Origin: Planctomycetia bacterium
Lineage (GTDB): Bacteria > Planctomycetota > Planctomycetia > Gemmatales > HRBIN36
Direction: 5' to 3'
DNA length: 36,948 bases
NCBI GenBank assembly: GCA_016795155.1
Contig: JAEUIE010000009.1
Span: 1-36,948, forward strand
Shown here piece after piece: positions 1,865 to 20,935 of the stretch. How positions within the stretch are numbered: the stretch's first letter is position 1; each line of letters starts with the position of its first letter. The translations under genes and the position numbers were made by a program. The notes below the pieces were generated by a model that ran no database searches, was not told the origin of the DNA, and was given only the letters and a program-made list of their open reading frames with translations.

Positions 1865-2926
<1,062 letters not shown>

Positions 2927-2930
2927 TCGT

Positions 2931-3881
2931 ATGATCGATCTGGCAAGAGAAAGAATTCTGGTGACTGGCGGAGCGGGCTTTCTTGGCAGCATCGTCTGCC
3001 AACTGTTGCGGGAACGAGGCGTTGCCGACGAACAACTGCTGGCCCCACGCAGTTCGCAATATGACCTGACCCGGCAAACCGATGTCGAACGACTTTATGC
3101 AGAATGGAAGCCTACCGTTGTCATTCACCTGGCAGCACGGGTGGGTGGCATTGGTGCTAATCAACGACATCCGGGTGAATACTTCTTTGCCAACATGGCG
3201 ATGGGTCTGCATCTGATTGAAGCGGCCAGGAAAAATGGCATTCGGAAGTTTGTCCAGGTGGGTACCGTGTGTGCCTATCCCAAATACACGCCAGCGCCGT
3301 TCCGCGAAGAAGATTTATGGAACGGTTACCCGGAAGAGACTAATGCACCCTATGGCGTAGCCAAGAAGGCGCTGTTTGTGATGCTCGATGGTTATCGCAG
3401 GGAGTATGGCCTGCCCAGTTCAGTGGTAATACCGGTGAACCTCTATGGCCCCAACGACAACTTCGATCCGCAATCTTCCCATGTAATACCAGCCCTCATT
3501 CGCAAATGCGAAGAGGCGCGGGTGCAGAAACGTACACATATTGATGCCTGGGGAACCGGCTCCGCTTCGCGGGAGTTTCTCTACGTCTATGATTGCGCCA
3601 ATGGCATCGTAGCTGCTGCGGAACGGATGGAAGAACCAGTTCCCATCAACCTGGGTACTGGCAACGAGATTTCCATCAAGGCGTTGACGGAGCTGATTGC
3701 CCGGCTGTGCGACTTTGAAGGAGAGATTCGTTGGGACACCAGCAAGCCTGATGGCCAGCCACGTCGGCAACTCGATGTGAGCCGGGCCAGGCAACTTTTG
3801 GGCTGGTCGGCACAGATGCCGTTTGAAGAAGGCCTTCGCCGCACCATTGCCTGGTGGCGAAATTCACAGGGCGCGTCATGA
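2931..3881 (+). CDS. fcl: GDP-L-fucose synthase
   Basis: Epimerises and reduces GDP-4-keto-6-deoxymannose to GDP-L-fucose using NADPH, completing the pathway begun by gmd. The 316-residue length is normal. The nucleotide-binding motif is TGGAGFLG (residues 12-19). Catalytic positions correspond to E. coli Fcl with a constant offset of five: T112 in place of Ser107, C114 for Cys109, Y141 and K145 in YGVAK, and H184 for His179 in SHVIPAL. Residues REFLYVYD and GTGNEISI match the substrate region. The stop codon overlaps the ATG of the following glycosyltransferase (ATGA), which suggests translational coupling. Confidence 0.95.
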   Translation: MIDLARERILVTGGAGFLGSIVCQLLRERGVADEQLLAPRSSQYDLTRQTDVERLYAEWKPTVVIHLAARVGGIGANQRHPGEYFFANMAMGLHLIEAARKNGIRKFVQVGTVCAYPKYTPAPFREEDLWNGYPEETNAPYGVAKKALFVMLDGYRREYGLPSSVVIPVNLYGPNDNFDPQSSHVIPALIRKCEEARVQKRTHIDAWGTGSASREFLYVYDCANGIVAAAERMEEPVPINLGTGNEISIKALTELIARLCDFEGEIRWDTSKPDGQPRRQLDVSRARQLLGWSAQMPFEEGLRRTIAWWRNSQGAS

Positions 3882-5107
3882 TGAACCGGCCGCCCCGCAT
3901 CACCATCCTCTACCATTTCTTTCATCCTGACAATGTCGTCAGCGCCCAGTTGTTCTCCGACCTGGCGGTGGATCTCGCAGCAAAAGGATGGCAGGTAGAA
4001 GCAGTTACCAGCAACCGTTCCTGCCATGCACAAACAACGTACAGGCCGACACGGGAACACTGGAACGGCGTGAACATCCAGCGTATCTGGCGGCCACAGT
4101 GGAAGCAATCATCGGCAAAAGGACGCATCTTGAATGCCCTCTGGATGATTGTCGCCTGGTGCCGTATTGCCTTTCGCAGCAAAAAAAACGTGCCCGATGT
4201 TCTGTTTATCGGTACCGATCCGGTGTTGTCCATTCTGGTTGCGAGAGTGGTTCGCCTGTTTCGCCCCTGCGTGAAGATCGTGCACTGGGCTTATGATCTG
4301 TACCCCGAGGCAGCATTGGCTGATGGCCTGATGCGGGATGATTCCCGATTCATACGTTTGATAAAATCATTGCTGCGATCATCTTATCGTTCGTGCGATC
4401 TGGTAGCTGACTTGGGACAATGCATGCGTCAACGGCTGGAAGCCTATGGACTTACATGCCGAAAATTCACCGTCCCCCCTTGGGCACTCGCTGAACCGAA
4501 AACTGTGGAACAGGCCGATCCGGCTCTGCGTGCGAAACTCTTCGGCAATGCTAAGTTGACGCTGCTCTACTCAGGCAACTTCGGTCGTGCTCATGAGTTT
4601 ACCGAGTTCCTGGCGTTAGCCCGGCAACTACGGAACACGGACATCGTGATGGGTTTTTCCGTGCGGGGCAACCGCGTGGATGAGTTGCGTGATGCTGTGA
4701 CAGCAGACGATACCAACATCCGCTTTCTGCCTTTTGCTGAAGAAAGCGAATTGAGCCGACATCTGGCCACGGGCGATATTCACCTGGTGAGCCTGCGACA
4801 GAACTGGACCGGCATTGTCGTGCCTTCTAAGTTCTTCGGCTGCCTGGCATCAGGCCGGCCTGTGATCTTCGCTGGTGAAGAACAGTCGTGCATCAGCCAG
4901 TGGATAGGGGAATATCAGCTTGGCTGGCACCTGAGCGAAACCAACATCACCGAAATCGCTGAGGCACTCAAAACTATCAGTCAGTCGCCTGGGCAACTGC
5001 AAACCAAGCAGCAGCACTGCTGGGAAATTTACCAGAAGCAGTTCAGTCGAAAGCATTTATCCGAAGAGATGCACCAGGAACTCACCAGACTGTTATCGCC
5101 CTCATAA
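3878..5107 (+). CDS. GT4-like glycosyltransferase (WcaI/WbuB type)
   Basis: A 409-residue GT-B-fold glycosyltransferase resembling the WcaI/WbuB group, which acts in exopolysaccharide or O-antigen assembly and may transfer a fucose. The N-terminal half begins ITILYHFFHPDNVVSAQLFSDL, the usual start of this group, and contains HWAYDLYPEAALADG. The C-terminal half carries LLYSGNFGRAHEF and the nucleotide-sugar segment NWTGIVVPSKFFGCLASGRP. Two tandem ATGs lie at 3878 and 3881; the first overlaps the fcl stop, giving a 4-base overlap, and is preferred over an upstream start at 3854 inside fcl. Donor and acceptor cannot be told from sequence; GDP-fucose is inferred from the neighbours. Confidence 0.85.
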   Translation: MMNRPPRITILYHFFHPDNVVSAQLFSDLAVDLAAKGWQVEAVTSNRSCHAQTTYRPTREHWNGVNIQRIWRPQWKQSSAKGRILNALWMIVAWCRIAFRSKKNVPDVLFIGTDPVLSILVARVVRLFRPCVKIVHWAYDLYPEAALADGLMRDDSRFIRLIKSLLRSSYRSCDLVADLGQCMRQRLEAYGLTCRKFTVPPWALAEPKTVEQADPALRAKLFGNAKLTLLYSGNFGRAHEFTEFLALARQLRNTDIVMGFSVRGNRVDELRDAVTADDTNIRFLPFAEESELSRHLATGDIHLVSLRQNWTGIVVPSKFFGCLASGRPVIFAGEEQSCISQWIGEYQLGWHLSETNITEIAEALKTISQSPGQLQTKQQHCWEIYQKQFSRKHLSEEMHQELTRLLSPS

Positions 5108-9950: not shown

Positions 9951-10193
9951 ATGCAGCGCGAAATGAATGTCCTGGCGCTCCACAAAGGCACAGAACACTA
10001 TTTGTTCCTGTACGATGATGACAGCCTGCCTGCCCTGGTAGATCTCTTTCGTCGATATGCATCTGATTCGGAACTCAGCTTCAACTGGTTCGATGCTGCA
10101 GTAATGACTGACAAAGGCAAATCGCAGATGCAGGCTGAAGCGAACAAGCCGGTTCAACACTCGCCTCGCTTTCCAGCGGAGACCGCAGGATGA
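9951..10193 (+). CDS. Small hypothetical protein coupled to xerD
   Basis: An 80-residue protein starting at an ATG behind GGGGTGG, chosen over an in-frame start at 9939. The N-terminal 50 residues (MNVLALHKGTEHYLFLYDDDSLPALVDLFRRYA) look like a compact alpha/beta fold; the tail is polar and probably disordered. The stop overlaps the ATG of the recombinase gene (ATGA at 10190-10193), so the two are likely translated together. I do not recognise a family. Confidence 0.65.
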   Translation: MQREMNVLALHKGTEHYLFLYDDDSLPALVDLFRRYASDSELSFNWFDAAVMTDKGKSQMQAEANKPVQHSPRFPAETAG

Positions 10194-11086
10194 CCGAGGC
10201 TCTTGCCTCCTTCCTCAATCATCTGGTTATCGAAAAGAACGCCTCCGAACATACGACCAAGGCCTATCGCGAAGATTTGACGCAGGCCGTGGATTATTTC
10301 CGCACGCAGTTGGGCAAAGACGCCACTATCAAACAGGTAAGCACCCGCACCATTCGCAGCTTCCTGGCTCACCTTCATGAACAAGGGCTGAGCAAATCAA
10401 CCATTTCCCGCCGATTGGCTGCAGTGCGCTCTTGGTTCAAGTATCTTTGTCGTGAACAGACCTTGATCACCAGCCCGGCAGAAGGTGTGCGCGGCCCCAA
10501 GAAAGACAAGAAGCTGCCCAAGTTTCTGACCGAAGAGTCAACAGACAAGGTATTGCTTTCACCCGAAGACGATGAACAGAGCGGCCCTCGCGACCGGGCG
10601 ATTCTGGAGACGATTTATTCTGCCGGCCTGCGTGTCAGTGAATGTGTGCAGCTCAATCTGCAGGACATCAACCTGGATGACAACGTACTGCTGGTGCGAG
10701 GCAAAGGCAAAAAGGAACGGCTCGCGTTCCTGGGTGAATCGTCGCTGAAGGCCATCACCAACTGGCTCGATGAAAGAGGAAAGCTGCTCAAGGCTAAAGG
10801 CCAGGAAACCGAAGCGGTCTTCATCAACAAGTTCGGCACCAGGCTGACCACCCGCAGCGTTGGCCGATTGCTGGCCAAATATCTCAGACAACTGGGAATG
10901 TCAGGCCAGGCAAGCCCGCACACCCTGCGACACAGCTTCGCTACCCATCTGCTGGATCGCGGTGCGGAAATCAGAAGTGTACAGGAACTCTTAGGCCACC
11001 GAAGCCTGACGACGACACAAATCTACACGCATTTAACCACCCAACGATTGCAGGAAAGTTACAAGAAGGCGCATCCGCGAGCGTAA
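10190..11086 (+). CDS. xerD: Tyrosine recombinase, XerD/XerC type
   Basis: A 298-residue site-specific recombinase of the kind that resolves chromosome dimers at dif with a partner Xer protein. Residues 1-90 form the SAM-like N-terminal core-binding domain (LNHLVIEKNASEHTTKAYREDL). Residues about 110-290 are the catalytic domain, with all six active-site residues at the positions they have in E. coli XerD: R148, K172, H244, R247, H270 and nucleophile Y279. Motifs are AGLRVSE, HTLRHSFATH, LLGHRS and TQIYTHL. The numbering favours XerD over XerC, but the assignment by position alone is soft. It is coupled to the small gene upstream. Confidence 0.9.
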   Translation: MTEALASFLNHLVIEKNASEHTTKAYREDLTQAVDYFRTQLGKDATIKQVSTRTIRSFLAHLHEQGLSKSTISRRLAAVRSWFKYLCREQTLITSPAEGVRGPKKDKKLPKFLTEESTDKVLLSPEDDEQSGPRDRAILETIYSAGLRVSECVQLNLQDINLDDNVLLVRGKGKKERLAFLGESSLKAITNWLDERGKLLKAKGQETEAVFINKFGTRLTTRSVGRLLAKYLRQLGMSGQASPHTLRHSFATHLLDRGAEIRSVQELLGHRSLTTTQIYTHLTTQRLQESYKKAHPRA

Positions 11087-11183: not shown

Positions 11184-11264
11184 GTGGGACACGTTTCAAT
11201 GTGTCATGATGCGATGACACGTTGGGACGTTTTACATTCCTGGTACGATACAATCGTGCCCCAC
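11184..11264 (+). repeat. Double-hairpin intergenic repeat, copy A
   Basis: The 81-base unit starts GTGGGACACGTTT and ends CGTGCCCCAC. It contains two hairpins: GACACGTTTCAATGTGTC at 11188-11205 and GGTACGATACAATCGTGCC at 11242-11260, each with one mismatch or wobble pair. The reverse complement of copy B (12842-12924) aligns to it closely at both hairpins, with a diverged middle. The unit lies just downstream of the stop of the DUF2330 gene at 11274. Confidence 0.75.
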
Positions 11265-11273
11265 GAAACATTC

Positions 11274-12722
11274 TCACCCCACTGAAAACCAATCCTGCAT
11301 CGCATAACAAACCAATGTCACCAATCCAAGGTGGGCAAGGATCAGCAGCAAGAGCTCCCAGCAGGTTCGTTGACACCGATAACAAACGAGCCAGATAATC
11401 CACGCCGGGATAAAAAACAGAAACACCACCAGGCCAAGCGTGGTGAACGGATCGCTGGATGCCCAGTTGGTAGTCGAGTCTGCTGGCTCGTTGCGTCGCC
11501 ACAGATAATAAAACAAACTGCAGACAAGCGGAGTGCCAGCCAGGCCAGCGCCCGTCAGTAGTGCATATCCCGTATCTCGCCAGGTAACGGATCGTTGGCG
11601 AATGAACAGTAGCATCAATGGTGCAATCAGGATTCCCAAGACTGCCGATGCCATCACCAGGATAGTGGGCGTTCTACCCGCGATCCAGCCGGCAACCGTT
11701 TCGCGGACATCATTGCTCGATTCCAGAGTAAGGTCTTGATGCCAATCTGCCGGGTTCGGGCTGAGCGTGATTTTGGTAACCGGCCTGACGCGAACTGCTT
11801 CCAGTTGCGAGGGTGTCAATCCACTCCCCATGCCGCTACGTCCGAGCGCGGCATCATCTGTTGGGACAACGATTTTCCCCAGCATTCGATGACACGCCAG
11901 CCCTGGAATACGCATGTCCGTCGTTGCCTGATACCAGCCTCGAAGATAGACAGTGGTTTCCACAGGCGTAGGATTCGCCCGCGTCGGCAGAAGCGGGTAG
12001 AACGGCTGGGGACAGGCAAAGTCAATCACCACCGCCCGGCCTGTTCCAGGCGTATCGCCACGCCAACTACATACAAATGAGTACTGTGCTCCGTTTTTAG
12101 CACCGAAATACTCTTTCAAGCTGGTCAGTTGCTCAGCTTTAATATCAAGCTGCTTCTGTTGAAAATATTTGTTCAGCGCATCCCCATCTTTGGCTGTCAG
12201 CACTTCGACGACCATGCCGAGCGCCTCAATATGACTATGTACCACCACCAATGGCTCGCGGTGGCTTCCTCCGTTTGCGGCACCAAGAGCTGAATCCGCG
12301 GTCGAAAATGTCACTGATTTGGGCTGTGATCCGACTGACTGGAAGAAGAGCCTGACTGGTGAAAGCATGTAGCCGGTATCCCACATTAATGCCAACTCAC
12401 GGGTTTGCTGCAGATTCTCGCGTGCGCGGGGAATGGGGAAATAGGGCTGGTAGACACTCGGCATCCGTTCAATCGGCTTGGCTGAGACTCGACCCGGTTC
12501 ACAAGGAATCGGAATGATCCAGACAGTGGGCTTATCTGTCTTTTCAGATTGCGTCTTTACATACAGCCGTTCCTGGCTGGCTTCCCATTCAATGAACGCA
12601 TGCTGCTCGCTCTCACTGACAAAGCCCCCACCTTTCTTGGCAATGATCCCATCACTATGGGCTACTGTTGCACAACCAAGAACGGCGATGATAACAACAA
12701 GAAATCGAATAACAGCAAGCAT
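11274..12722 (-). CDS. DUF2330-like secreted/membrane protein
   Basis: A 482-residue protein starting MLAVIRFLVVIIAVLGCATVAHS, a signal peptide probably cleaved before DG; an upstream in-frame start at 12866 would lie inside repeat B and is rejected. The exported part opens with DGIIAKKGGGFVSESEQHAFIEW, then ERLYVKTQSEKTDKPTVWIIPIP, the pattern of DUF2330 proteins. Residues about 350-482 carry four hydrophobic segments, so the C-terminus is a membrane domain. Function is unknown. The gene stands alone and is enclosed by inverted copies of a hairpin repeat, with no co-oriented partner other than the LOG gene 200 bases upstream. Confidence 0.75.
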   Translation of the reverse strand: MLAVIRFLVVIIAVLGCATVAHSDGIIAKKGGGFVSESEQHAFIEWEASQERLYVKTQSEKTDKPTVWIIPIPCEPGRVSAKPIERMPSVYQPYFPIPRARENLQQTRELALMWDTGYMLSPVRLFFQSVGSQPKSVTFSTADSALGAANGGSHREPLVVVHSHIEALGMVVEVLTAKDGDALNKYFQQKQLDIKAEQLTSLKEYFGAKNGAQYSFVCSWRGDTPGTGRAVVIDFACPQPFYPLLPTRANPTPVETTVYLRGWYQATTDMRIPGLACHRMLGKIVVPTDDAALGRSGMGSGLTPSQLEAVRVRPVTKITLSPNPADWHQDLTLESSNDVRETVAGWIAGRTPTILVMASAVLGILIAPLMLLFIRQRSVTWRDTGYALLTGAGLAGTPLVCSLFYYLWRRNEPADSTTNWASSDPFTTLGLVVFLFFIPAWIIWLVCYRCQRTCWELLLLILAHLGLVTLVCYAMQDWFSVG

Positions 12723-12841
12723 GGCACACCCAATTATCTTTGATTCATGCTCCAAAATGATAACAAAGTTGTTTGCATTTGCTCCATGCAAATGTCTGAC
12801 AGTTGAATGCCACTGATCAGCGGTATGCGAAGTTCGTGGCA

Positions 12842-12924
12842 GTGGGGCACGATTGTATCGTGCCAACGGGATAAATTATCTCTCCAAGCATCATCCAAAA
12901 TGACACGTTTAAAACGTGTCCCAC
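12842..12924 (-). repeat. Double-hairpin intergenic repeat, copy B (inverted relative to copy A)
   Basis: The unit starts GTGGGGCACG and ends AACGTGTCCCAC. GGCACGATTGTATCGTGCC (12846-12864) is a perfect 8-bp stem with a TGT loop, and GACACGTTTAAAACGTGTC (12902-12920) is a second strong stem. Its reverse complement reproduces copy A at both ends. It lies between the start of the DUF2330 gene and the end of the LOG gene, six bases from the LOG stop. Confidence 0.75.
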
Positions 12925-12930
12925 TGCCAA

Positions 12931-13722
12931 TTACTCCCCCAGCCACCACCTGCGCTTCGGCCTCTTGTACTTGAGTCCAAACTGTTTAATCGCTACTTCA
13001 GAGACTGCCTTGGCTGCTTCCTCAGGCGAATCGGTTACCAGTATCCGGTCGTAATCGCCCTGGCTGATCGTTCTCGCCTTGATCATGCATTTCAGAAAAT
13101 CGAGCATCGGTTCCCAGTAGGCTTTGCCCATCAGCACCAGGGGGAAGTTGTGAATCTTGCCGGTTTGAATCAGCGTGGCGGTTTCAAATAACTCATCCAG
13201 TGTGCCATATCCGCCAGGTAGAATGACGAACGCGTACGAGTACTTCACCAACATTACCTTGCGGACAAAGAAGTAGCGGAACTCAACAAACTTGTCGAGA
13301 TACGGATTCGGATGCTGTTCGTGGGGCAAGACAATATTGCAGCCTACCGAATAACCACCCGCATCTTTGGCGCCACGGTTAGCAGCTTCCATGATGCCCG
13401 GACCACCACCTGTCATGATGGTGAACCCACTCAGTGCCATCTGCCTGCTGACTTCACGAGCCAGAATATAGTAAGGATGATCTTCCTGAAACCGCGCCGA
13501 ACCAAACACGGTCACGCAGGGACCGATGAAATGAAGATTGCGGAAGCCCTTCATCACTTCCAGGAAGATGCGCAATGCTCGCCAGAGTTCCGTGCCACGC
13601 CTTTGTGGGCCTTCCAGAAACCGGCTGTCATCCAGCGTGGTCGCTTGCTTACCCCAGTTCGGCCCTTTTCCCGGTGGGACCACTTCAGGCAATTTCGGCT
13701 CCTGGCCAGTCGGTAAGGTCAT
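12931..13722 (-). CDS. LOG-family protein (Rossmann fold, possible nucleotide 5'-monophosphate phosphoribohydrolase)
   Basis: About 263 residues with the LOG/TIGR00730 signatures: VTVFGSARF, TGGGPGIMEAANRGA, and VILPGGYGTLDELFE, the P-G-G-x-G-T-x-x-E motif that binds the phosphoribose and carries the catalytic Glu. Proteins of this family cleave cytokinin or other nucleoside monophosphates to base and ribose 5-phosphate; the native bacterial substrate is often unclear. Of two close starts, the ATG at 13722 has AAAGGA nine bases ahead, whereas the one at 13731 directly abuts it. The N-terminal 45 residues are longer than in minimal LOG proteins, and the C-terminus is basic (YKRPKRRWW). Confidence 0.85.
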   Translation of the reverse strand: MTLPTGQEPKLPEVVPPGKGPNWGKQATTLDDSRFLEGPQRRGTELWRALRIFLEVMKGFRNLHFIGPCVTVFGSARFQEDHPYYILAREVSRQMALSGFTIMTGGGPGIMEAANRGAKDAGGYSVGCNIVLPHEQHPNPYLDKFVEFRYFFVRKVMLVKYSYAFVILPGGYGTLDELFETATLIQTGKIHNFPLVLMGKAYWEPMLDFLKCMIKARTISQGDYDRILVTDSPEEAAKAVSEVAIKQFGLKYKRPKRRWWLGE

Positions 13723-13816
13723 ACTTTTCATTCCTTTGCTGAAGTGGTCCGGTTTTTACTCTGTACAGTTGACAGTTGCTTCGTCAGTCAGAGAGTATCA
13801 CTATGGTTATATCATT

Positions 13817-20593: not shown

Positions 20594-20935
20594 ATAGGGG
20601 TAGGAAGGATCGCATAATACTGATCCCTCCTCCCTCTGAACCGTGCGGGCGGATTTCCCGCACACGGCTCTCACGCTTGATGGTTTACCCACGAGGGGAT
20701 TGACAGGCCAGGTCTCGGGCTGTCTTCAGACTGTACAGCCCCAGTCCTGCAGAGAAGTCATTCTTCCAGCGTTGATGATCGGATCCTCGCCCACGGCCAC
20801 GACGCCCCGCTCCCCCTATAGGGTGTAAATGCCAGTGTAAAAGTGCAGCGCGGGTGGCAAGTCGAGTGATGTTGTAAAAGTACTGACCCCGAAAAGCTGC
20901 GTTTCGACGGCCACGTGGCAGGTACGTAGATTGAT
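20594..20935 (-). mobile_element. Group II intron remnant, 3' end only
   Basis: On the minus strand, 20594-20670 holds the intron's domains V and VI, ending CCCCTAT at the putative 3' splice site, three bases from the PVC gene stop codon. Upstream, a frame ends at a TAA near 20690 with HQRWKNDFSAGLGLYSLKTARDLACQS, which resembles the C-terminal tail of group II intron reverse transcriptases (R-W-x-N...G-L-x-S-L). That frame can be followed to about 20935 but shows no reverse transcriptase motifs, so the catalytic part, domains I-III and the 5' end are gone. The right boundary is uncertain. The remnant cannot splice or move by itself. Confidence 0.65.
20638..20670 (-). ncRNA. Group II intron domain V
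   Basis: The 33 bases fold as domain V does: a 9-bp lower helix (GAGCCGTGT with GCACGGTTC, including G-T pairs), a two-base CC bulge on the 3' side, a 4-bp upper helix (GCGG/CCGC) and a GAAAT loop. The AGC catalytic triad is at the second to fourth positions. Domain VI would be the next hairpin (about 20595-20637), pairing GGAGGAGGGATC with GATCCTTCC. Confidence 0.8.

Follow-up and report, generated by a model that had tools for sequence, protein, structure and literature searches.

The two inverted repeats, A and B, that flank a single weakly DUF2330-like gene in the window (the whole of contig C9, 36,948 nt, from a genome of 5.28 Mb in 68 contigs) can be regarded with high confidence as two independent REPIN copies, that is, doublets with their heads facing outward that lie at gene 3′ ends, and the enclosure of one gene between them is most likely a coincidence. 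On its sequence features, the family to which A and B belong is best classed as REPIN/BIME, since it has GT(A/G)G heads and inverted doublets whose spacing is fixed, together with changes that preserve pairing and a probable RAYT on contig C5. An earlier note had considered three readings of the pair, namely REP/BIME-like repeats, a MITE pair able to mobilise the gene, and RNA processing elements at both ends of a transcript; the first of these was correct, and it can be narrowed to a REPIN family that has a probable RAYT partner.

Read in one orientation, the repeat unit consists of REP-a (GTGGGACACGTTT..AACGTGTC), a spacer of ∼36 bp and an inverted REP-b (GGCACGATACAATCGTGCCCCAC), the GTGG heads pointing outward. 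The coordinates of A and B reported earlier are confirmed (Table 1), as is the presence of exactly one gene between them. The two copies were also described as reverse complements of each other at both ends, and this is upheld by inverted arm pairs at 11241-11264/12842-12865 (24 nt, 96% complementary) and 11183-11199/12909-12925 (17 nt, 94% complementary); the spacers (∼35 bp) are unlike, so that the reverse complementarity is limited to the ends. As to the two hairpins per copy, B forms two clean 8-bp hairpins, and in A the left palindrome is degenerate through one deletion and one substitution. Both copies fold better than their shuffles (for A, z -4.85 on the plus and -2.55 on the minus strand; for B, -4.61 and -3.60 on the two strands). 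The GTGG head is present in each of the four REPs of A and B, and the palindrome is degenerate in just the one REP of A. The spacer of A (window 11206-11241), which has an extra inverted copy, ATGACACGTTGGGACGTTT, is shared with a single REP on contig C50 (L026:3050-3093), and the two perhaps represent a subtype.

Table 1. Repeat elements A and B, the genes around them and the RAYT candidate on contig C5. Coordinates refer to the window unless a locus is given.
Feature	Coordinates	Strand	Description
Copy A	11184-11264	+	81 bp; REPIN: REP-a, spacer ∼35-36 bp, inverted REP-b; GTGG heads outward
REP-a of A	11184-11205	+	Degenerate, GTGGGACACGTTTCAATGTGTC
REP-b of A	11242-11264	-	GTGGGGCACGATTGTATCGTACC; one mismatch to REP-b of B
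Copy B	12842-12924	-	83 bp; REPIN of the A/B family; orientation opposite to A
REP-b of B	12842-12864	+	GTGGGGCACGATTGTATCGTGCC
REP-a of B	12902-12924	-	GTGGGACACGTTTTAAACGTGTC
xerC-like tyrosine recombinase gene	10190-11086	+	Convergent with the enclosed gene; 97 nt from A
Enclosed gene, weakly DUF2330-like	11274-12722	-	482 aa; stop codon 9 nt from A
TIGR00730/LOG-family gene, neighbour	12931-13731	-	Stop codon 6 nt from B
RAYT on contig C5	L011:3229-3915		NF047646, 86.8 bits (cut-off 80)

The DUF2330 label first given to the enclosed gene is a weak one, PF10092 scoring 18.0 bits where the Pfam gathering cut-off is 24.7. The gene is single copy in its own genome, where the segment as a whole does not recur; it is present in three of 41 genomes, its own included, and absent from most relatives. 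A separate scan of a collection of genome contigs with the protein as query gave no relative. Gene order at the A/B locus is not kept in the genomes compared from the taxonomic family, which are of other genera, and the xerC-like, DUF2330-like and LOG-family genes do not occur together in the stretches read from them. There is no transposase between A and B, and no known RNA family in Rfam is matched in the A-B segment. Elsewhere in the window, positions 20594-20672 on the minus strand, directly after a large CxxCH gene, match the group II intron family of Rfam (RF00029) at 56.1 bits, against a cut-off of 40.

A genome-wide search for further copies, which the earlier note had called for, detected a pattern for both palindromes at 55 places with no more than one mismatch in the 5.28 Mb, whereas the reversed control pattern gave none, and the palindrome signal is therefore not due to chance. 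The family comprises ∼55–60 palindromes in ∼30 blocks, which is a modest copy number for a REP family. The note had associated simple REP-like repeats with hundreds of copies unconnected with the gene; the lack of connection holds, in that A and B alone among the ∼30 blocks adjoin the DUF2330-like gene, and the copies are found in tens rather than hundreds, an outcome that speaks against the composite reading. Most places are doublets with ∼58–60 bp between starts (17 units), and the remainder are compact doublets (mostly 47–48 bp), tandem runs joined by ∼6 bp, and singles. Thirty of the 33 blocks listed are located outside called ORFs. Across 40 relatives, repeat counts are near background, except for isolated similar inverted pairs.

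Across 16 aligned units, 97.2% of the cells in the proposed stems are paired, compared with 94.2% when partners are shuffled, a control that is lenient because the units are related sequences. Three stem pairs have changed on both sides, the clearest case being T-A to G-C at stem position 2 of REP-b, a change carried by five of the 16 units, A and B among them. So far as this alignment indicates, stem pairing is in agreement with known REP behaviour, the leniency of the control notwithstanding.

Several further repeats were encountered in the genome. A sister REP family (GTGGGTCAAGATTCCAATCTTGAC and variants) contributes ∼20 more copies, several of them joined to A/B-family copies, and its palindrome is present in the window at 1683-1706. 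A 60-bp compact doublet (L028:3094-3153) is situated in frame within the open frame 2481-3860, to which it would add 20 residues. Near-identical stretches close to the starts of contigs C2 and C3 (L008 and L010), each with an A/B-family doublet and a sister-family doublet, represent either a duplication or an assembly effect.

The position of the blocks relative to genes is highly uneven. When only the 30 blocks that avoid called genes are considered, a gene 3′ end is no more than 15 nt away in 27 of them (median 5.5 nt) and a 5′ end in none. Non-coding positions drawn at random from the same loci would come this near to a 3′ end in 5.5% of cases, or 8.5% for convergent gaps; the gene calls used in this test are those of a codon-usage caller, which missed the RAYT gene on C5. 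A and B conform to this pattern, each following a stop codon by a few nucleotides (Table 1), and because one adjoins the DUF2330-like stop and the other the LOG-family stop, they belong to two different 3′ ends. With each repeat directly past the stop codon of a different gene, the boxed appearance of the gene is most likely coincidental. When 30–40 blocks are placed randomly among 3,500–4,400 gaps, a gap number that is assumed for a genome of this size, the probability that at least one gene is bracketed by chance is 0.18–0.36, or about 1 in 3–5. Bracketing of one ordinary gene in the manner of A and B is not seen at the other blocks.

A search with the RAYT model NF047646 at a cut-off of 80 bits identified three genes in the genome. 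The RAYT encoded on C5 (Table 1) also matches the solved structure of E. coli TnpA_REP (4ER8); PF01797 gives no match to it. Five A/B-family doublets that share one orientation surround the gene, three of them to one side and two to the other. These doublets are of the compact subtype, with REP-b beginning GTGGGTCACG, and A and B are of the longer-spaced subtype, with GTGGGGCACG. Judged from these sequence relationships, the C5 RAYT is probably the partner transposase of the A/B family, and its association with doublets of the family suggests that it probably moved A and B.

Other RAYT genes have repeats of their own. On contig C32, a second RAYT gene (L007, 1474-2025) is located between doublets at 1303-1395 and 2030-2122, which belong to a GTGG family of other sequence and are in direct orientation. 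GTAG repeats surround a RAYT-like gene on C23, and L059 (C22:103266-103736) matches the RAYT model above the cut-off and contains one internal TGA. Several RAYT homologues in relatives likewise have their own GTAG or GTGG hairpins alongside.

As independent REPIN copies, A and B could have arisen through a C5 RAYT that would recognize GTGG-headed hairpins in single-stranded DNA and spread the doublets in trans, with insertions surviving mainly where they fall directly past stop codons. If the RNA hairpins are active at all, they would be expected to act on the 3′ end of the mRNA of the upstream gene, the candidate roles being 3′ protection or ribosome stalling as for E. coli REPs located no more than 15 nt from the stop codon; the target of A would then be the DUF2330-like gene and that of B the LOG-family gene. 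The tight placement at 3′ ends may reflect targeting or survival, which placement counts do not separate. That it results from insertion aimed at gene ends instead of selection after insertion, with the hairpins then tuning the translation or mRNA decay of upstream genes, is considered rather doubtful.

According to one alternative, the inverted REPINs are the ends of a 1.74-kb transposable segment carrying the DUF2330-like gene, in the way that REPs flank RAYT genes. The REP-b ends are indeed inverted and near-identical, the gene is missing from most relatives, and the same genome contains RAYT genes enclosed by such doublets, which makes the composite geometry physically plausible. Against this, the gene is single copy, only A and B of the ∼30 blocks adjoin it, no transposase is found inside, and the spacers of A and B are unlike, which suggests that they derive from different source copies. 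Moreover, A and B are located at different stop codons, just as 27 of the 30 blocks are at some stop codon, and bracketing by chance is not a rare outcome at the probability given above. A composite transposon is thus set aside as unlikely on copy number, on the single-copy gene, on the different stop codons and on chance bracketing, and the suggestion that a MITE pair mobilises the gene is very unlikely to be correct.

According to a further alternative, A and B form a non-mobile pair, co-selected for a function in RNA processing or termination at the two ends of the DUF2330-like transcript. Both elements have strong RNA folding on both strands, and A follows the stop codon of the gene by 9 nt with B 119 nt upstream of its start, but B is only 6 nt from the stop codon of the upstream gene and nearly all family members adjoin some 3′ end, so that the two elements are assigned to separate 3′ ends, A to that of the DUF2330-like gene, B to that of its upstream neighbour, rather than both to one transcript. 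Intrinsic terminators were likewise rejected, since a scan found four terminator-like sites against 2.5 expected from shuffles, with no clear U-tract. One-gene bracketing is not repeated at other blocks, and this regulatory arrangement, too, is highly improbable. The least probable reading of all treats the family as a DDE-type MITE whose terminal inverted repeats start with GTGGG and which is moved by an unrelated transposase. It would account for an 81-bp unit with inverted ends but is opposed by the existence of single REPs and several spacings, and by the RAYT gene that sits among A/B-family doublets; inspection by eye of the junctions of 17 units showed no evident target-site duplication.

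The recognition of A and B as independent REPIN copies removes a false lead, since gene capture by the pair is most likely not the case, and a planctomycete-like genome gains a well-defined REPIN family together with its probable RAYT. Given its strong 3′-end placement, the family offers a fair test case for whether REPs act at stop codons in bacteria other than E. coli and Pseudomonas. Earlier work cited in PMC12306157 reports that E. coli REPs no more than 15 nt from a stop codon stall ribosomes; A and B fall within this distance, the stalling itself being reported for E. coli.

The closest parallels are found among REPINs and GT(A/G)G-headed REPs. Like the REPINs of Pseudomonas fluorescens SBW25 (PMC3116915), the A/B family consists of inverted REP doublets with a similar spacer length that are scattered outside genes, adjoins a RAYT gene of the same genome and displays compensatory changes, whereas it differs in palindrome sequence, in copy number (tens, not hundreds) and in that the two REPs of one unit are not alike (a heterodimer). 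Two features are shared with the GT(A/G)G-headed REPs described together with RAYTs (PMC2817692), namely a GTGG head that precedes a perfect palindrome, itself unpaired over a short central stretch, and the flanking of a RAYT gene by such REPs, although two inverted REPs accompany each RAYT in those systems and the C5 RAYT is accompanied by three plus two doublets, all in one orientation. Among the GTAG repeats described as head-head dimers or conv-REPs, whose hosts include planctomycetes, dimers with outward tetranucleotides predominate, intragenic copies occur and convergent genes have repeats <20 bp from their 3′ ends (PMC3733652). The A/B family, with a GTGG rather than a GTAG head and likened to these repeats by description and not by a sequence match to one of the 24 families, resembles them in the predominance of head-outward dimers, the 3′-end placement and the presence of intragenic copies.
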